32,741 nucleotides of DNA from an uncultured Clostridia bacterium (lineage in GTDB: Bacteria; Bacillota; Clostridia; Christensenellales; Aristaeellaceae), in the NCBI GenBank assembly GCA_946536315.1, contig CAMNEH010000019.1, forward strand, positions 1-32,741, read 5' to 3'. Below are positions 2,593 through 32,319 of this stretch, in pieces (position 1 is the stretch's first letter; each line of letters starts with the position of its first letter). The position numbers and the translations under genes are program-made. The notes under the pieces were generated by a model, which did not search any database, had not been told where the DNA came from, and worked only from the letters and a program-made list of their open reading frames with translations.

Positions 2593-2622
2593 TTGACAAT
2601 ACGCGAACGCATCCATTACAAT
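2593..2622 (+). promoter_or_regulatory. Promoter of the HAD-histidine phosphatase gene
   Basis: TTGACA (2593-2598), an 18-nt spacer and TACAAT (2617-2622). The leader that follows contains a 6-bp inverted repeat CTCCCC/GGGGAG near 2634-2651 before the ribosome binding site. Confidence 0.75.
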
Positions 2623-2697
2623 GAAAGGGACAATCTCCCCGCTCCCGGGGAGACAGGAGCGTCCCTGAAAACGGAACAGAATGGAGGAGGCAGGCAC

Positions 2698-5043
2698 ATG
2701 AAGGCAAACAGACTGTTGGCATGGCTGCTGTGCACGCTGCTGATGACGGCGAACGCGGCAGGGCCCGTCCTGGCGGAAGCGGTGCCCGCGGCAGAGGACG
2801 GCGGGACGTATTTCACCCTGTGGAACACCAACGCGCCAGCGCTGAATACGCTGACGGATTATGTGAAGGCCGTAACGGCTCCCGGCTCCCCGGACTTCAT
2901 TCCGGAAAGGGATCGCATCGCGACCTTCGATATGGACGGCACGCTGATGGGCGAGCTGTTCCCGACCTACCTGGAGGTGGCGCTGCTGACCGAGCGCATC
3001 CTGGCCGATCCATCCTGGAAGCCGGACGAAGAAATGCTGGCATTTGGCCGCATGACCCGGGATCACGCGCTGGACAAGTCCTTTCCGGCGGATTATGATA
3101 CCGAGTTCTCCCGTCATCAGGCCCGGGCCTTCGCCGGAATGACGCTCCAGGAGTACGAAGACTTTATTGCCGGCTTCCTGGCGCGCGAGGCGGACGGCTT
3201 CGAGGGCATGACCTATGGGAGCGCCTGTTACCGGCCGATGGCCGGGGTGATCCGGTATCTGCAGGACAACGGCTTCAAATGCTTCATCGTTTCCGGCAGC
3301 GACCGCTTTATCGTTCGCGCCGCGATCGGCGGCCTGGCGGATATCCCCCCTGAAAATATCATCGGCTCGGATACCGCGCTGGCCGCGCGGAACCAGGGCG
3401 ACACGGACGGCATCGAGTACGTGTTCACCGGCGACGATGAGCTGGTGCGCACGGACAAGTTGCTCATCAAGGACCTCAAGACCAACAAGGTCCTGCAGAT
3501 CGCGCAGGAGATCGGCCGGCAGCCGGTGCTGTCCTTCGGCAATTCCAGCGGCGACGTGAGCATGAACAACTACGCGCTGCTGAACAACCGTTACCGCAGC
3601 GCGGCATTCATGCTGATCGCGGATGACGACGTGCGGGATTACGGCCGTCCCGAAAAGCACGACGAGCTGACCGAAAAGTGGCAGGGCATGGGCTATCAGG
3701 TGATCTCCATGCGCGACGACTGGAAGACGATCTACGGCGAGGGCGTCACAAAGACCGGCCAGTTCCGCTGGCTGGCGCAGTATTCGGACCAGAACATCCC
3801 CGCCCGCGACGGGAGCATCGCGGACAAATATACGCTTGAACAGGTGGTCGTGCTCAGCCGGCACAGCCTGCGCGCGCCGCTCTCCAGCAACGGCTCGGTG
3901 CCAAACGAGCTGACGCCCCACGCCTGGATCAACTGGTCGGCAGGCTCCAGCGAGCTGACCCTGCTGGGCGGCGTCGAGGAGGTCAGTATGGGCCAGTATT
4001 TCAGGAAATGGCTGGCCCAGGAGGGGCTGATTCCGGAGAACACGGTCCCGCAGGCGGGCGAAATGCGCTTTTCCGCCCGCAACAAGCAGCGCTGCCTCGC
4101 CACGTCCCGCTATTTCGCCGCGGGCATGCTGCCGGTGGCGGATGTTCAGGTGGAATACCCCGGCGACGCCCACGGCACGGTGGATTTCATGCAGCCCGTC
4201 CTGCATTTTTACAGTGACGACTACGCCGCCGACGTCATCACCCAGGTAGCGGCCCTGGGCGGCGAGGCGGGCTTTGACGGCCTCGCCGCGCAGAACCGGG
4301 ACGTGATCCGGCTGATCATGGATACCGTGGACATGGAGGACAGCGAGCTCTACCAGAGCGGAAAATACGGCGATCTGCTGACCGACGGCTTCGGCGTCAC
4401 GATGGCGCCCGGCAAGGAGCCGGACGTCACCGGCGCGGTCAAGCCGGCCTATCAGGTGGCGGACGCGCTGCTCCTGCAATACTATGAAGAACCCGACCCC
4501 GTCAAAGCCGCCTTCGGCCACACGCTTTCCGGGGAGGACTGGGCGCGGCTCGGCGCGTTCATGAGTACCTGCCTGCAGATGCGGCACGGCGCGCCCATGG
4601 TGGCCGCGAACATCCAGCATCCCCTGCTCATGGAGCTGAAGAGCGAGCTCCAGAACCAGGACAGGAAGTTCACCTTCTTCTGCGCCCACGACGTCACCGT
4701 CTTCGGCGCCCTTTCCGCCCTGGGCGTGGAGGACTATTCCCTGCCGCAAAGCATTGAGACCAAGGCGCCCATCGGTGTGAAGCTGGTGTTTGAGCGCCGG
4801 CGCGACGCCGAAGGCCAGGCCTGGTACCGCGTGAGCCTGATCTATCGCAGCACGGCGCAGATCCGCAGCGGCGAGCTGCTGACGCTGGATAACCCGCCCC
4901 TGCGCTATGATCTGCGCTTTGAAGGCGTTGAGACCAACGCCGACGGCCTGATCGCCGAGGCGGACCTGATGGCCCTGTTCGGCCGTTCCATCTCCGTACT
5001 GGATGAGCTGGAGCGCGCTTACGCGATGGACGACGCCGCGTAA
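2698..5043 (+). CDS. Exported fusion: HAD phosphatase plus histidine acid phosphatase
   Basis: A 781-residue exported protein with two unrelated phosphatase domains. Residues 1-28 are a signal peptide (cleavage near VLAEA). Residues about 50-345 form a HAD phosphatase: nucleophile motif FDMDGT with D78 and D80, motif II at FIVSGSD (about 197-202), a lysine near 254-259, and FGNSSGD with D286. Residues about 375-781 resemble glucose-1-phosphatase/phytase (Agp-like): RHSLRAP with H389 and R392, then the proton-donor HD pair H664-D665. The ATG at 2698 follows GGAGGAGG by 7 nt and begins the signal peptide. Both active sites look intact. Likely role: scavenging phosphate from sugar phosphates or inositol phosphates outside the membrane. 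Substrate is inference. Confidence 0.92.
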   Translation: MKANRLLAWLLCTLLMTANAAGPVLAEAVPAAEDGGTYFTLWNTNAPALNTLTDYVKAVTAPGSPDFIPERDRIATFDMDGTLMGELFPTYLEVALLTERILADPSWKPDEEMLAFGRMTRDHALDKSFPADYDTEFSRHQARAFAGMTLQEYEDFIAGFLAREADGFEGMTYGSACYRPMAGVIRYLQDNGFKCFIVSGSDRFIVRAAIGGLADIPPENIIGSDTALAARNQGDTDGIEYVFTGDDELVRTDKLLIKDLKTNKVLQIAQEIGRQPVLSFGNSSGDVSMNNYALLNNRYRSAAFMLIADDDVRDYGRPEKHDELTEKWQGMGYQVISMRDDWKTIYGEGVTKTGQFRWLAQYSDQNIPARDGSIADKYTLEQVVVLSRHSLRAPLSSNGSVPNELTPHAWINWSAGSSELTLLGGVEEVSMGQYFRKWLAQEGLIPENTVPQAGEMRFSARNKQRCLATSRYFAAGMLPVADVQVEYPGDAHGTVDFMQPVLHFYSDDYAADVITQVAALGGEAGFDGLAAQNRDVIRLIMDTVDMEDSELYQSGKYGDLLTDGFGVTMAPGKEPDVTGAVKPAYQVADALLLQYYEEPDPVKAAFGHTLSGEDWARLGAFMSTCLQMRHGAPMVAANIQHPLLMELKSELQNQDRKFTFFCAHDVTVFGALSALGVEDYSLPQSIETKAPIGVKLVFERRRDAEGQAWYRVSLIYRSTAQIRSGELLTLDNPPLRYDLRFEGVETNADGLIAEADLMALFGRSISVLDELERAYAMDDAA

Positions 5044-25590: not shown

Positions 25591-28095
25591 TTATTCCGCG
25601 TCCTCCGCAGTCTCCGGCGCTTCCTCTGTGGCCGATGGCGCGGCGTCCGCAGGCGCTTCCGTCGTCTCCGCGGTCTCCTCCGCCGCTTCGGCAGGCGCGT
25701 CCGCGGTCTCCTCCGCCGTCTCCGCAGGTTCGTCCGCGGCCGGGGCTTCCACCGCCTTCAGCAGGGGGATGACCCGCACGCGCCAGACGTAATTGCTGTT
25801 GGTCTGGTCGATCACATACCGGTACTCCAGGGCATTCGCGTCCTCGATGTCGTACACGGTCACGCCGTTGTCCGGCGAATACTGCCACTGGACGATGACC
25901 TGGTCCATGTCGTACCCGATCAGGGACGCCGTCAGCACCACCTCGGTGCCGGCCTGTACCGTCGTCACGCCGTCCAGGGACGAGTTCAGCCGGACCGTCG
26001 GCCGCGCGGGCGTTTCAGGCTCTTCAGCAGGTTCTTCCTCAACGGGCTGCCCGTCCGCAGGCGCTTCGGTCTCCTCTGCGGGTTCCTCTTCAGCGGGCTG
26101 CTCGTCCGCAGGCGTTTCAGGCTCTTCCGCGGGCTCTTCCTCAGCGGGCTGCTCGTCCGCAGGCGCTTCGGTCTCCTCTGTGGGTTCTTCCTCAGCGGGC
26201 TGCTCGTCCGCAGGCGCTTCGGTCTCTTCTGCGGGTTCTTCCTCAGCGGGCTGCCCGTCCGCAGGCGTTTCGGTCTCTTCCGCGGGTTCCTCTTCAGCGG
26301 GCTGCTCGTCCGCAGGCGCTTCGGTCTCCTCTGCGGGTTCTTCCTCAGTGGGCTGCTCGTCCGCAGGCGCTTCTGTCTCTTCTGCGGGTTCTTCCTCAGC
26401 GGGCTGCTCGTCCGCAGGCGCTTCGGTCTCCTCTGCGGGTTCTTCCTCAGTGGGCTGCTCGTCCGCAGGCGCTTCTGTCTCTTCTGCGGGTTCTTCCTCA
26501 GCGGGCTGCTCGTCCGCAGGCGCTTCGGTCTCCTCTGCGGGTTCTTCCTCAGCGGGCTGCTCGTCCGCAGGTGCTTCGGTCTCCTCTGTGGGTTCTTCCT
26601 CAGCGGGCGGCTCGTCCGCAGGCGCTTCGGTCTCCTCTGCGGGTTCTTCCTCAGCGGGCTGCTCGTCCGCAGGCGCTTCGGTCTCCTCTGCGGGCGCTTC
26701 CTCAGCGGGCTGCTCGTCCGCAGTCTCAGGGGCTTCAGTCTCTTCTGCGGGCGCTTCCTCAGCGGGCTGCTCGTCCGCAGGCGCTGGTTCTTCGATTTCG
26801 GTGGCAGGCGCTTCGGCGGTCTCCTGCTCGGCCGCGTCCGGTGCGGCAGATGCATCGGGCTCCGTCACCGGGGCCGCAGGCGCGAAGACGAAGCCGCCGG
26901 CAGGCTGTGCCGTTTCGGGCGTATCCGCGGCAGGCTGATCCCCAGTGTCCGCGGCCTGCGGTTCCGCCGGCGCGAAGGAGAAGGCCGGGGCTGCCGGCGC
27001 GTCTGTTGCAGCGGCAGGCGCTTCAGGCGCTGCCGCAGGCGTCTCCTCTGGCGCTTCCGCAGGCGCATCCACAGGCTTCTCCGCGGGCGCTTCCTCTGAC
27101 GTCTCCGCGGGCGCTTCTGTCGGCGCTTCCGCAGGCGTCGCCTCAGAGGCTTCCGCAGGCGTCACCTCATGCGCTTCCGCCGCCGGTTCGGACATCGGCG
27201 CGGCGGTCGCCGCAGCGGCCTCGACGCGCTCCAGCAACAGGGTGAAGGCGCCGTTCGTCCGCTCGTCCACGCGCTCCACGGTCAGCAGGTAGGTTTTGCC
27301 GCTGAGCCTGAGCCGCTGCTGAAGGGGCAGATATTCGCCGTCCTTCTGCTCCGGCTTGAGCGTCTGGCGGTCCGAGCCGTTCTCCTGCGCGATGGTGACC
27401 GTGACCGGAACGCCGCCGGTGGTCAGGCGGATTTCCGTCGCGCGGCGCAGGGAAAGCCGCAGCACATATTTCGGCTGGCCGGCCGATACCTTGGCCGAAT
27501 ACCGTTCATTGAACTTCAGTTCGCCGTCCACCTGCGGCGCGGCATTTTGTTCAGACGCGGGCTGCGCTTCCGGCGCAGGCGCTGCCGTCGGGGCCGCTGT
27601 CGGTTCCGCCGCCGGTTCTTCCGCAGGTTCCTCTTCCGGCGCTTCCGTCGGCGCAGGCACTGCCGTCGGGGCCGCCGTCGGTTCCGGCGTCGGTTCTTCC
27701 GCAGGTTCCTCTTCCGGCGCTTCCGTCGGCGCGGGCGCTGCCGTCGGGGCCGCTGTCGGTTCCGGCGTCGGCTTTTCCTCCGGCGCTTCCGTCGGCGCGG
27801 GCGCTTCTGTCGGGGCTGCCGTCGGTTCCGGCGTCGGGGCCGCCGTCGGGGCCGCTGTCGGCGCTTCCGTCGGGGCTGCCGTCGGTTCCGGCGTCGGCTT
27901 CTCCTCCGGCGCTTCGGTCGGCGCGGGCGTGGGCTCTGCCGCGGGAAGCACCGTCACTTCCACCACGATTTCCGCCTCAGCCACTTCCGCCGCTTCTGCG
28001 ATTTCCGCGGGGGCTTGTGCTGTTTCCGCTGTCACGGGCAGCGCGTTCCCCAGCAGGAACACGGCCGTCAGAAACGCTACGAGAAATTTACGCAT
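25591..28095 (-). CDS. Exported Pro/Glu/Ala-rich repeat protein with Ig-like domain
   Basis: An 834-residue exported protein. Signal peptide 1-23 (ALPVTA-ET). Residues about 24-185 are a P/T/E/A-rich linker with TEAPEE and PTPEPTAAPT repeats. A folded beta domain follows at about 187-292 (ELKFNERYSAKVSAGQPKYVLRL to AFTLLLERVEA). Residues 293-430 are low complexity. Fifteen 17-residue units (consensus EPAEETEAPADEQPAEE) cover about 431-693. An Ig-like domain (about 697-785, TVQAGTEVVLTASL, VIVQWQYSPDNG) and an acidic tail end it. ATG 28095 follows GGAGGAAAGG. No LPXTG or lipobox was seen. Likely an extended cell-envelope stalk; function unknown. Confidence 0.85.
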   Translation of the reverse strand: MRKFLVAFLTAVFLLGNALPVTAETAQAPAEIAEAAEVAEAEIVVEVTVLPAAEPTPAPTEAPEEKPTPEPTAAPTEAPTAAPTAAPTPEPTAAPTEAPAPTEAPEEKPTPEPTAAPTAAPAPTEAPEEEPAEEPTPEPTAAPTAVPAPTEAPEEEPAEEPAAEPTAAPTAAPAPEAQPASEQNAAPQVDGELKFNERYSAKVSAGQPKYVLRLSLRRATEIRLTTGGVPVTVTIAQENGSDRQTLKPEQKDGEYLPLQQRLRLSGKTYLLTVERVDERTNGAFTLLLERVEAAAATAAPMSEPAAEAHEVTPAEASEATPAEAPTEAPAETSEEAPAEKPVDAPAEAPEETPAAAPEAPAAATDAPAAPAFSFAPAEPQAADTGDQPAADTPETAQPAGGFVFAPAAPVTEPDASAAPDAAEQETAEAPATEIEEPAPADEQPAEEAPAEETEAPETADEQPAEEAPAEETEAPADEQPAEEEPAEETEAPADEPPAEEEPTEETEAPADEQPAEEEPAEETEAPADEQPAEEEPAEETEAPADEQPTEEEPAEETEAPADEQPAEEEPAEETEAPADEQPTEEEPAEETEAPADEQPAEEEPAEETETPADGQPAEEEPAEETEAPADEQPAEEEPTEETEAPADEQPAEEEPAEEPETPADEQPAEEEPAEETEAPADGQPVEEEPAEEPETPARPTVRLNSSLDGVTTVQAGTEVVLTASLIGYDMDQVIVQWQYSPDNGVTVYDIEDANALEYRYVIDQTNSNYVWRVRVIPLLKAVEAPAADEPAETAEETADAPAEAAEETAETTEAPADAAPSATEEAPETAEDAE
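26020..26790 (-). repeat. 51-bp coding minisatellite, 15 copies
   Basis: The mark GTCCGCAG recurs at 26053 and then every 51 bp up to 26716, with one final 57-bp step to 26773. That gives 15 units coding the 17-residue repeat. Two neighbouring 102-bp doublets (about 26340-26440 and 26442-26542) look nearly identical, which points to recent duplication. Copy number is likely to vary between strains. Confidence 0.9.
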
Positions 28096-28191
28096 ACACC
28101 TTTCCTCCGTCCGGGGCCGTCGCGCGGACGCCGCCCGTTTCTCACCTGTCAGCCGCGGGACCATTCGCCCGCTCATCTTCCATAATGCCAC

Positions 28192-28208
28192 CGTCAGGTT
28201 ACCTGACG
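28192..28208. promoter_or_regulatory. Perfect palindrome in the operon leader, possible operator
   Basis: CGTCAGGT-T-ACCTGACG, with perfect 8-bp arms, lies about 25-40 nt downstream of the -10 box. A repressor site or a leader hairpin are both possible. A related half-site (ATACCTGAT) occurs at about 28223-28231. Confidence 0.45.
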
Positions 28209-28232
28209 CGTTACACATCGGTATACCTGATC

Positions 28233-28306: not shown

Positions 28307-31300
28307 TCACTCGATCTCCTTCCCGAGCACCGTCAGCACGCCGTCCACCATGCCCAGGGACACTGTCACCCGGTACTGCCGCCGGCTGTAGTAAATGCCG
28401 CTCTCCGGGTCATAGCCGTCGCTGTCCGCGGTCGCGGGGAGCCGTTCGCGCACCAGGTAGCGGAGCTCCGCTACGCCCGTCTGCGCGTCGGCCCAGGCCA
28501 GGTACTCCGGATACGCGTACTCGAGTGAGAACGCGAACCGTCCCCGCGCGTCGTGCGTCGCCTCCAGCAAATCGCGCCCGCCGAGCCCGGGATAGTGGCT
28601 GACGCCGCTCTCGGCGGGCAGCAGCTCAAACGTGAACTGCTCCGCCTCCAGCGCCTTGCCGCGCAGTTCCTTCACGCCCCCGACCGGCACGCTGACGCGC
28701 TGCCAGTCGTTTTCGACCGCCATCACATACAGCTCGCCGCTGCCCGACAGCACGACGCCCTCATAGCTTCCGGGCCGGGTCCACGTCTCGTCCGTCAGGC
28801 GCAGGCCCTTCTCGTCCTCGCTGTACCCCGCGCCGTTGAACACCGTAAAGTAGATCGGCGCCAGCAGCCCCTGCGCCCCGTCCGGCGCTTTGGTTTCCGT
28901 CAGCACGTAATAGCCGTTGGGCAGGTCCTCGCTGCGCGTTCCGGCGGTAAAGGTCACACTGTACGGCTCGGGCGGCGCCTGCTCATAGATGTTTTTGACC
29001 ATGCTGACCGTGAATTCCGCGCCGTCCAGGATGCCGCCGGCCTCGTCCAGCTTGTTCAGGACCAGCGACGTCTTCTGGATTTCGTTCGTGAACGTGATGG
29101 TGGTCGTGAGCCGGTCCTCAGACACCACGCGCTGCATGCCGGCAAACGCGTACCCCTTCGGGACGATTTCCTCCGCCCGGTACGGGTAATAGCCGGAGTC
29201 CTGGTCCTTTTCGTCAAAGTCGTGCGGGCGCACCAGCACCAGGCCGTACGTTTCGGACCAGGTGTTGGCCGCCTTCGTCCAGTCGGGCTCGGCCTCCGCC
29301 GGACTGACGCCGTCGCCCGCCGCGTAGCCGCTCATATCCGTCTGCGCCGGCTCGCCCGCGATCGCGCCGCGGTTCAGCGACACGTCCAGATCCTCCGGAC
29401 GGTTGCCGGTCACGTTGTTGTCGTCGACCCATACTTTGTTGATGATCACCTTCGCGCCGTAGATTTCCAGGGTCAGCTCCTTTTCCAGCGTGAAGGGCGA
29501 GCCCAGGAAGGTGCCGTTCGCCCGCGCGATGACCGTATACCTGCCCGGCATTTTCCGGCTGAAGCTGTCCTCCCAGCCGCTTTGCACGGGCACGCCGTCC
29601 ACGCTGACCAGCCTGTACTGCACCTCGCCCAGGGAATAGCCGCCGTCCGCCAGGATCTGCTCCAGCTCCTGGCGGTAGCGGGGCGTATCGTACAGGGTGC
29701 CCTTTTCCAGGACGGCGTTCGCCTCCAGCAGGTGCGTGTTCCCGTCGTACGGCAGGCGTTTGCTCTCCCCGTAGATGCCGGCCCACACGGCCTCCACCGT
29801 ATACCGTCCGCCGGTGTCCCCGTTGAAGCGGAACACGAGCTCTTCATTGTATCCGGCAGGCAGCAGCCGCCCGGGCAGCGCCGGATAGGTGACGCCGTTA
29901 TGCTTGAACTCCGGGCGATCCTTATCGAACCAGCCGAGGAATTTGTACCCCTCCGCCTGCGGCGTGTGCGTATCCAGATAGAATTTTTCGCCCCTGGCAT
30001 AGTACTGTCCGCCCTTGGTGGAATAGTACATCACCGCGCCGACGCCGGACATCATCACGAAATCCTTGGCGCCGCCCCAGCTGACCGCGGTATCGTACAG
30101 GTTCATGTTGTAGCCGACCATGCCCGACTGGGCGCCGGTTTTCCGGAACATCGCGTAGTAGGTCGCGTCCTTCAGCAGCTCGCCCTCCGGCGCCAGCGTC
30201 GGCCAGTCGTAGCCCTGGATCGGGATCACCACGTTGGGGTCGTCGGTCTTTTCGATCCAGCCCGCGAACGCGTAGTTGGCGTTTGCCCTCGCCGTAGACC
30301 CGTAGACTGTTTTCGTGTTGCTGCCGCGCCATTCATCCATGCTTCGTGTCACCGTGCCGCCGGCCGCCGGCTCGGCGACGTAGTAGATCCGGTGCACCGG
30401 CACGTCCGGGTTGTTCGTATAGTACGCGATCAGGTAATTCGCGCCGTCCTGGATGTACGCGCTCAGGTCGTACCCCGCGGGGATCGTGTTCCCCGCGACG
30501 GGCAGCCGGTTCCAGTTCAGCTCCCAGTGATCGAACACAAATTCCTCATACGCCTGGGCGATCAGGTCCGCGGGGATGGTGCCGTCCTCGCGGATATACA
30601 TGGCCACGACGTGCCCGTTCACGGTATTGTCGTAGGTGGCGCTGCCCACGTAGCCCGGCTCCGTCTCATCCACGTTCGCCACGCCGATGGTCAGGTAGCT
30701 GTCGTAGATGTCCGGCTCGAAGACCGCCGTGTAGGTCGCGCCCTCGCGGATCTGCTCGCCGGCCGGCACAAACTCGGGCCAGTACCCCACCGTGGTCCCT
30801 TTTTCGTCCATCCAGGACACAAAGCGGTAATTGCGCTTCGCGGTGGCCGTGCAGCCGGCCGCGCCGACCCTTTTATCGGCGATCTCGCTGTCGATCGAGA
30901 CCGTGCCGCGCACCTGATTGGCCTGGTAATAGATGGTGACCTGGGTGACCTCTTCAAACACGGCCCTGTAGTGGGTATTGCCGGTGATCTGGTCCGCGTA
31001 GATGCGCATGTGCGGCTCATAGCTGTAGTGAGACCCGTCCCCGTTCAGCCATTCGACGAAGCGGTAGCCGTCCTGCGGGACAGCGGTCACGTTGTTATTG
31101 ATGTAGGCGGCGTCATCGATCGTGTACGTCCCTTCGCCGTTCACGACGTAGCCGCCTTCCCCGGCGCTGAAGGTGATGGTATACGGCGCGTCGGTGACGC
31201 CGATCAGGTAGCGGGTGCCGTCCTGCGTGACGAGCGTCAGCGCCTCCTGTGAGGTGAACGCCGTCTGGCTGGTCAGCAGGAAATCCTTTTCGCCCACATA

Positions 31301-32266
31301 GACGTCCGGATGCCCGTTGCAGGTGATGTAGCCCGACACCGGCGTGACCGTCACCAGCCGGTCGTCCGTGAACCGGACCGTGGCGACCTCCCGCACGTCC
31401 AGCAGTTCGCCCCCATCCGTGCGGATGTCCAGCAGGCGGATCAGTTCCGACAGCAGGATCTGGCTTTCGCCCGGGATGGAGTAGTCCGTGCCCCGGTAGT
31501 GGAAATCCACCGTCCAGGCCACCATGTAGGGCGAGAAGCCGTCGGTGGTCATGGTAAAGCCGTACAGCGCGTTGCCGCGCACGTCAAACTCGACCTGGTC
31601 CACCGGCGACGGTTCGCCGTCCACGATATGGTAAAGCGTCAGCGTCCGCGCGGTGATCACGGCGTCCGCCTCCGCCAGCGCGACGGGCGCGTCCAGCCGC
31701 ACCTCCGTGCGGTAGTACGTCCCCGGCGTCAGCCGCTCCGGCGCGACCGCAAGGTCCAGCCCCAGCCAGCCCGTGCTTACGAAGTCCGCCGCGTTCCCGC
31801 CGGGCAGCGTCTGCGGCGTGATGCCCAGCGCTTCGGCCGCCGCGCTGACATCCGCCGGGCCCACCGTCACCGCGTCCGCGGGCAGCGCGGTCACCGGCCG
31901 CGGGTTGGACAGCGCGATCTCCAGGACGTCCCCCGTGACCGTTTCCACGGTCAGCGTGACCAGGTCAAACCAGTCCAGCGCCTCCAGGTACAGGTCTTCA
32001 TCGATCGCGACCAGCCCCGGATCGCTGACCGTGACGTCGGTCACGCCCGAATAGACGCCGTTCAGCCCCAGGACATATGACACCAGCGCCCGGTCGCCCA
32101 CGCCGTGGAACTGGTACGCGTATTCTGCCGGCGCCAGCGTCACATTCGTGTGCAGCCAGTCGCTCGTGAACGCCTCCGTCCCGGCCTGCGCCGGCAGCAG
32201 GCAGAACAGCAGCAGCAGCGCCAGTGCGCTGCGCCACCGCCGTCCCATTCCATACTGTCCTTTCAT
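28307..32266 (-). CDS. Large exported adhesin-like protein with InlB-like, Cna-B and FctA-like domains
   Basis: A 1319-residue exported protein. Signal peptide 1-29 (LLLLFCLLPAQAG). An N-terminal beta-rich region covers about 30-375. InlB B-repeat-like units follow at about 375-760 (patterns such as YRFVEWLNGDG, YRFVSWMDEKG and YAFAGWIEK, each followed by ATY or THY and VF). A Cna-B-like domain lies at about 935-1060 (NKVWVDDNNVTGNRPEDLDVSL), a SpaA-like one at about 1064-1142 (LDGAEFTV, GYYVLTETKAPDG), and a C-terminal FctA/isopeptide-linkage-like domain (GGVKELRGKALEAEQFTFEL). It stops right after that domain: no LPXTG, membrane helix or basic tail. Start 32266 follows GGGGGAGGGG. Likely an adhesin or pilus-like surface protein. 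Confidence 0.87.
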   Translation of the reverse strand: MKGQYGMGRRWRSALALLLLFCLLPAQAGTEAFTSDWLHTNVTLAPAEYAYQFHGVGDRALVSYVLGLNGVYSGVTDVTVSDPGLVAIDEDLYLEALDWFDLVTLTVETVTGDVLEIALSNPRPVTALPADAVTVGPADVSAAAEALGITPQTLPGGNAADFVSTGWLGLDLAVAPERLTPGTYYRTEVRLDAPVALAEADAVITARTLTLYHIVDGEPSPVDQVEFDVRGNALYGFTMTTDGFSPYMVAWTVDFHYRGTDYSIPGESQILLSELIRLLDIRTDGGELLDVREVATVRFTDDRLVTVTPVSGYITCNGHPDVYVGEKDFLLTSQTAFTSQEALTLVTQDGTRYLIGVTDAPYTITFSAGEGGYVVNGEGTYTIDDAAYINNNVTAVPQDGYRFVEWLNGDGSHYSYEPHMRIYADQITGNTHYRAVFEEVTQVTIYYQANQVRGTVSIDSEIADKRVGAAGCTATAKRNYRFVSWMDEKGTTVGYWPEFVPAGEQIREGATYTAVFEPDIYDSYLTIGVANVDETEPGYVGSATYDNTVNGHVVAMYIREDGTIPADLIAQAYEEFVFDHWELNWNRLPVAGNTIPAGYDLSAYIQDGANYLIAYYTNNPDVPVHRIYYVAEPAAGGTVTRSMDEWRGSNTKTVYGSTARANANYAFAGWIEKTDDPNVVIPIQGYDWPTLAPEGELLKDATYYAMFRKTGAQSGMVGYNMNLYDTAVSWGGAKDFVMMSGVGAVMYYSTKGGQYYARGEKFYLDTHTPQAEGYKFLGWFDKDRPEFKHNGVTYPALPGRLLPAGYNEELVFRFNGDTGGRYTVEAVWAGIYGESKRLPYDGNTHLLEANAVLEKGTLYDTPRYRQELEQILADGGYSLGEVQYRLVSVDGVPVQSGWEDSFSRKMPGRYTVIARANGTFLGSPFTLEKELTLEIYGAKVIINKVWVDDNNVTGNRPEDLDVSLNRGAIAGEPAQTDMSGYAAGDGVSPAEAEPDWTKAANTWSETYGLVLVRPHDFDEKDQDSGYYPYRAEEIVPKGYAFAGMQRVVSEDRLTTTITFTNEIQKTSLVLNKLDEAGGILDGAEFTVSMVKNIYEQAPPEPYSVTFTAGTRSEDLPNGYYVLTETKAPDGAQGLLAPIYFTVFNGAGYSEDEKGLRLTDETWTRPGSYEGVVLSGSGELYVMAVENDWQRVSVPVGGVKELRGKALEAEQFTFELLPAESGVSHYPGLGGRDLLEATHDARGRFAFSLEYAYPEYLAWADAQTGVAELRYLVRERLPATADSDGYDPESGIYYSRRQYRVTVSLGMVDGVLTVLGKEIE

Positions 32267-32319
32267 CGAAGCCCCTCCCCCATACGCAAACGATAAGCGT
32301 TTCTTCGCCCGACGCAAAT

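Follow-up and report, generated by a model that had tools for sequence, protein, structure and literature searches.

We analysed a window of 32,741 nucleotides, a whole stretch of DNA from an uncultured Clostridia bacterium of the Aristaeellaceae (contig CAMNEH010000019.1), which is high in GC and close to metagenome-assembled genomes (MAGs) from the ruminant gut. The gene under study (2698..5043, + strand) consists of 781 codons without a stop, and Pfam placed two domains in its single reading frame, PF12710 at residues 75-289 (37.2 bits against a gathering cut-off of 27) and PF00328 (His_Phos_2), whose best stretch covered residues 379-484 (51.8 bits against 23.6). Upstream of the 781-aa translation, a putative sigma-70-like promoter, TTGACA-N18-TACAAT (2593..2622, +), was recognised purely by its consensus match (11 of 12 positions), and a Shine-Dalgarno sequence, GGAGGAGG (2683..2690, +), was read just 5' of the ATG at 2698. 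The protein starts with a probable export signal (residues 1 to ~27; 2698..2778, +), which begins with charged residues, continues with a hydrophobic core and ends in an A-x-A-like motif (MKANRLLAWLLCTLLMTANAAGPVLAEA); it was predicted from the hydropathy and charge pattern alone, and pLDDT is low at 19-36. The protein continues with a HAD domain (residues ~40-360; 2815..3777, +), delimited by Pfam, alignment and model, an interdomain linker (residues ~361-373; 3778..3816, +), with a pLDDT dip near 369-372, and a histidine acid phosphatase (HAP) domain of the Agp-like kind (residues ~374-775; 3817..5022, +). An earlier note on this DNA had described two unrelated phosphatase folds in one polypeptide behind one signal peptide. 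Both folds were indeed modelled with confidence in the full-length protein (pLDDT 87.8), the interdomain orientation being of low confidence (pTM 0.57), and the N-terminal pattern fits an export signal shared by both halves. In addition, the catalytic residues that the note had named (D78, D80, D286, H389, R392, H664 and D665) were all found at the positions given.

The window gene is flanked by GNAT, glutamine synthetase and His biosynthesis genes; no phosphate-scavenging genes lay beside it, and no partner gene recurred among the window flanks and the clustered neighbours of related loci. Elsewhere in the window, a protein of 875 aa that looks exported, has no Pfam match and is extremely rich in Ala, Glu, Pro and Thr is encoded at 25591-28218 (-) by a gene in which a 51-base unit is repeated about 15 times (26005-26785) and which has a strong AT skew (-0.62). 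It adjoins a 1336-aa surface-protein-like ORF (28307-32317, -) with InlB B-repeat-like, SpaA and FctA-like isopeptide domains.

The HAP half carries the RHxxRxP motif as R388-H389-S-L-R392-A-P394 and the HD motif as H664-D665, which place it in branch 2 of the PF00328 superfamily; both motifs were kept in 42/42 fused HAPs, in which R388, H389, R392, R465, E574, H664 and D665 were invariant. Alignment with E. coli Agp (L133) gave 113 identities in 386 positions (29%), and R17, H18, R21, L24, R94, E196, H289 and D290 of Agp corresponded to R388, H389, R392, L395, R465, E574, H664 and D665, so that the Agp active-site set, including E196 and L24, was complete. In Agp, His18 is the nucleophile and Asp290 the general acid (PMC8938923). 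The closest PDB sequences were Agp proteins, followed by AppA phytases, and the modelled half matched the Enterobacter AgpE structure 3ntl with a TM score of 0.91. Similarly, the nearest NCBIfam model was that of the bifunctional glucose-1-phosphatase/inositol phosphatase (NF007553), although the score of 233.1 bits was below its equivalog cut-off of 425. The half thus shares its fold, RHxxRxP, HD and the positions of R94 and E196 with Agp (PDB 1nt4 and 6rmr from E. coli; 3ntl), but differs from it in its limited identity, its sub-cut-off score, its fusion to a HAD domain and the loss of the C-terminal Cys pair, the Agp sequence GCPIDANGFC reading GVETNADGLI here. This pair probably corresponds to a C-terminal disulphide that HAP structures are reported to conserve strongly (PMC3669009). 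AppA and other HAP phytases (1dkp, 4aro) have the superfamily and the catalytic motifs in common with the HAP half, but are farther from it than Agp (AppA: TM 0.83, 24% identity, 109 bits against a cut-off of 585); a full AppA-like phytase was disfavoured by profile score, residue mapping and structure comparison. Altogether, by sequence and model the half is more like Agp, an enzyme for glucose-1-phosphate that is also annotated as an inositol phosphatase, than like a full phytase.

Modelled alone, the HAD half reached a pLDDT of 88.3 and a pTM of 0.88. Its nearest solved relative was 4ovy, a HAD hydrolase from Planctomyces limnophilus (Z 31.9, 31% identity), which has the same GNS-x-GD motif IV but is a stand-alone chain that the PDB describes merely as a HAD domain protein hydrolase. 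The fold was also similar to that of the Pseudomonas phosphorylcholine phosphatase PchP (4as2; Z 20.1, rmsd 3.2, 253 aligned residues, 21% identity). Motifs I (DxDGT), II (S/T) and III (K) are present as D78, D80, T82, S199 and K264, and the long stretch that separates motifs I and II points to a C1-type cap. HAD dehalogenases lack the second Asp of DxD. The earlier note had called the active-site residues of both folds intact; in the HAD half D78, D80 and D286 are retained, but motif IV reads GNSSGD, N282 standing in place of its first Asp. The window HAD accordingly lacks a GDxxxD with both acidic residues, while its Pfam score and fold still assign it to the HAD superfamily. At the aligned place 4gxt has GDSDGD, and motif IV of 4as2 falls outside that profile alignment. 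In the metal-dependent phosphatase PchP the metal ligands are D31, D262 and the carbonyl of D33 (PMC3170909), whereas in the window HAD family an Asn occupies the first position of motif IV, a place that normally belongs to a ligand Asp. Because this position was Asn in 87/88 HAD rows and is also Asn in 4ovy, N282 is a family state rather than decay. D78, D80, T82, K264 and D286 were invariant in 88/88 rows across five deep lineages, with Ser or Thr always at position 199, and the same held for 44/44 fused HADs. A decayed HAD half was ruled out by this invariance together with the dN/dS values given below.

The earlier note had suggested a search for the PF12710/PF00328 architecture. In a scan of genome contigs seeded with the HAD-HAP protein, the combination recurred: 40 of the 80 related loci retained (the best 80 of 313 candidates) carried both domains in one ORF. 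These 80 loci came nearly all from ruminant-gut Clostridia and most relatives were MAGs, but carriers of the fusion included the named isolates Butyrivibrio sp. YAB3001 and Oribacterium sp. KHPX15, P6A1 and NK2B42. An assembly chimera or frameshift artefact was ruled out, since the fusion is present in some 40 loci of independent assemblies, which include named isolates. Some match was present in 41 of 150 genomes of the window's own family, in 13/200 genomes of the order sample and in 9/291 of the class sample (both at E 1e-30); in the phylum sample 5 of 299 genomes matched, with HAD and HAP as separate genes and no further fusion. Among plasmid records, 1,092 matches were obtained, none of which spanned 80% of the query, and the fusion was not found there. 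Each domain is of a known kind, and no description of a HAD-HAP enzyme or of this pairing was found in the open-licence papers searched.

The relationships among the fused proteins were analysed with a tree of 88 HAD domains and a HAP tree of 28 fused proteins, comparing hypotheses by AU tests. HAD-HAP proteins occurred in five well-separated HAD subfamilies, A (the window type), B (the Butyrivibrio type), C (L031, L044, L088 and L089), D (the Oribacterium type, L014 and L025) and E (L024, L028 and L074). A single clade of all N-terminally fused HADs was rejected (p 0.0014, reduced set), and grouping the HAP tree by HAD type was rejected for four of the five types (A, p 1.7e-97; B, 4.6e-8; C, 0.0015; D, 0.0008). 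The domain order was reversed to HAP-HAD in L030 and L031, extended to HAD-HAD-HAP in L007 and to HAD-HAP-HAD in L011, and in L071 the two domains were encoded by adjacent separate genes. Linker length was characteristic of each HAD lineage and differed between lineages, as shown by the spacing from the last HAD landmark to the first HAP landmark (A, 28-35 residues; B, 50-72; C, 15-17; D, 14; E, 41-43). Taken together, the trees, the AU tests, the presence of both orders and the lineage-specific spacing support the view that HAD and HAP were probably joined independently several times, although part of the partner swapping could reflect recombination between genes that were already fused. Export would be maintained by differing means, as sequence patterns predicted cleavable signals, lipoboxes (Butyrivibrio type) and membrane anchors (L024 and L074). 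Both halves are under purifying selection, with dN/dS of 0.09-0.32 in HAD and HAP alike.

The partners of the HAD module extend past phosphatases. It was found joined to prephenate dehydratase (PDT; L005 and L095), nucleoside deoxyribosyltransferase (Nuc_deoxyrib_tr; L032, from the window's HAD lineage), DUF3574 (L002), a dCMP-type deaminase (L098), DUF3089 with peptidase M15 (L123), SLH (L126 and L128) and Cu_amine_oxidN1 with or without SBP_bac_3 (L127 and L129). Another HAD copy in the window genome itself is fused to DUF3574, and in L009 a DUF3089 domain precedes HAD-HAP. The HAP module was joined to GH3 (L037) and to aspartate 4-decarboxylase, scoring over the curated cut-off (L046). In Selenomonas ruminantium pSRC2 (L134) a HAD gene directly follows a nucleoside deoxyribosyltransferase gene, and the HAD-deoxyribosyltransferase gene of L032 precedes a guanine-deaminase-like ORF that scores below the cut-off of that model; a link of the HAD module to nucleotide substrates would be a weak lead.

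Several of these loci have features of their own. The gene row in L134 comprises HAD, acetolactate decarboxylase, an alpha/beta hydrolase, a STAS protein, nucleoside 2-deoxyribosyltransferase and a gluconate symporter. The HAD-prephenate dehydratase proteins (L005:2379-4361 and L095:1381-3432) have an apparent export signal, which would place a shikimate-pathway enzyme outside the cytoplasm, and the aspartate 4-decarboxylase joined to the same HAP type (L046:585-3818) also appears to carry one. In L129:769-2931 (-) one polypeptide contains Cu_amine_oxidN1, HAD and SBP_bac_3, the last of which, judged by eye only, resembles cyclohexadienyl dehydratase. In L036 and L037 a NagZ-type GH3 lipoprotein-like domain is fused to an Agp-like HAP; a GH3 phosphorylase and a sugar-1-phosphatase would make a sensible pair. 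Finally, L020 and L022 have an exported N-terminal domain of ~200 residues, with no Pfam match, joined to HAP.

From the architecture, fold class, conservation, purifying selection and recurrent joining observed for the fusion, we infer the activity of each half, the substrates and the reason for the linkage. Because both halves are conserved and under purifying selection, and two phosphatase folds share one predicted export signal, two working active sites seem the best reading. Specifically, we propose, with a probability of roughly 0.6, that the product of the window gene is a bifunctional phosphomonoesterase that works outside the cytoplasm and has two independent active sites joined by a tether. 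The N-terminal signal would take the protein out of the cytoplasm. In the HAP half, which would act like a glucose-1-phosphatase, H389 would attack the phosphate to form a phosphohistidine and D665 would protonate the leaving group, with no metal required. In the HAD half, similar to HAD phosphatases with a type-I cap, D78 would attack and form an aspartyl-phosphate, D80 would be the acid/base, and a divalent metal would be held with the help of D286 and possibly N282. At the cell surface each site would act on small organophosphates of its own, and the flexible tether would keep the export of the two complementary activities at a fixed 1:1 ratio, with no substrate channelling. The lack of phosphate-scavenging genes beside the window gene speaks against this reading.

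A closer cooperation, in which a single multi-phosphorylated substrate (phytate, sugar or nucleotide phosphates) is processed by the two halves one after the other, HAP removing some phosphates and HAD the rest, for instance, would fit with HAD-HAP being the most recurrent pairing found, in both orders, with the annotation of Agp-type enzymes as inositol phosphatases too and, as a hint at nucleotides, with the fusion of the window HAD lineage to nucleoside deoxyribosyltransferase in L032 and its place next to such a gene in Selenomonas. Since the linkers range from 14 to 72 residues among lineages and the modules have many other partners, tethering seems preferable to a dedicated channel, and the low confidence of the interdomain orientation (pTM 0.57) likewise speaks against the sequential enzyme. 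The nearest precedent for the pattern points the same way: exported fusions of chorismate mutase and cyclohexadienyl dehydratase occur in nine species of Proteobacteria, in both domain orders and by inferred convergence, and join consecutive steps of one pathway, yet tests revealed neither channelling nor a kinetic gain (PMC10520331). They resemble HAD-HAP as exported two-enzyme proteins found in both orders, but consist of different enzymes in a different phylum. We consider a true two-step enzyme unlikely, and a broader pH or metal range, the other advantage proposed in the earlier note, would be conjectural.

Given the Asn in place of a metal-ligand Asp, the HAD site could also be weak, differently metalated or no phosphatase at all. 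That the HAP half alone is a working phosphatase, while the HAD half binds a ligand or performs other chemistry, is suggested by N282 when compared with the PchP ligands (PMC3170909) and with the GDSDGD of 4gxt. This seems quite improbable to us, as D78, D80, T82, K264 and D286 are invariant in all HAD rows with Ser/Thr always at 199, the Asn is itself a conserved family trait shared with 4ovy, and the half keeps the second Asp of its DxD. The linkage, in turn, may be nonspecific, because the HAD module also joins enzymes with no obvious phosphate link, such as prephenate dehydratase, a dCMP-type deaminase and DUF3574. The diversity of partners described above for HAD, and GH3 and aspartate 4-decarboxylase for HAP, would agree with exported modules being joined freely, HAD and HAP merely being common ones. 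Against such a fusion without specific meaning, the HAD-HAP pairing turned up in at least five HAD lineages and in both orders, more than any other pairing, although a scan seeded with HAD-HAP favours finding it; we regard free joining as somewhat unlikely.

Two tethered, independent active sites thus remain our preferred reading. More tentatively, it is possible that Clostridia of the gut and rumen maintain, outside the cytoplasm, a set of small-molecule enzymes that arose by the repeated joining of a few exported modules, in which HAD would be the hub (with HAP, prephenate dehydratase, nucleoside deoxyribosyltransferase, DUF3574, deaminase and DUF3089 as partners), HAP would in addition be joined to GH3 and aspartate 4-decarboxylase, and HAD-HAP, as the most recurrent product, would be the sign of an exported metabolic system that has gone unrecognised. 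A clear target is provided by the HAD subfamily that has a solved member and an Asn in motif IV, and the fusion can be tested because named isolates carry it. That this pair of phosphatases was apparently fused repeatedly and independently, in either order, is natural evidence that their co-export benefits the cells and suggests that the two cooperate outside the cell; the fusion is also relevant to the ways in which phosphate and carbon are freed from organic phosphates by rumen bacteria.
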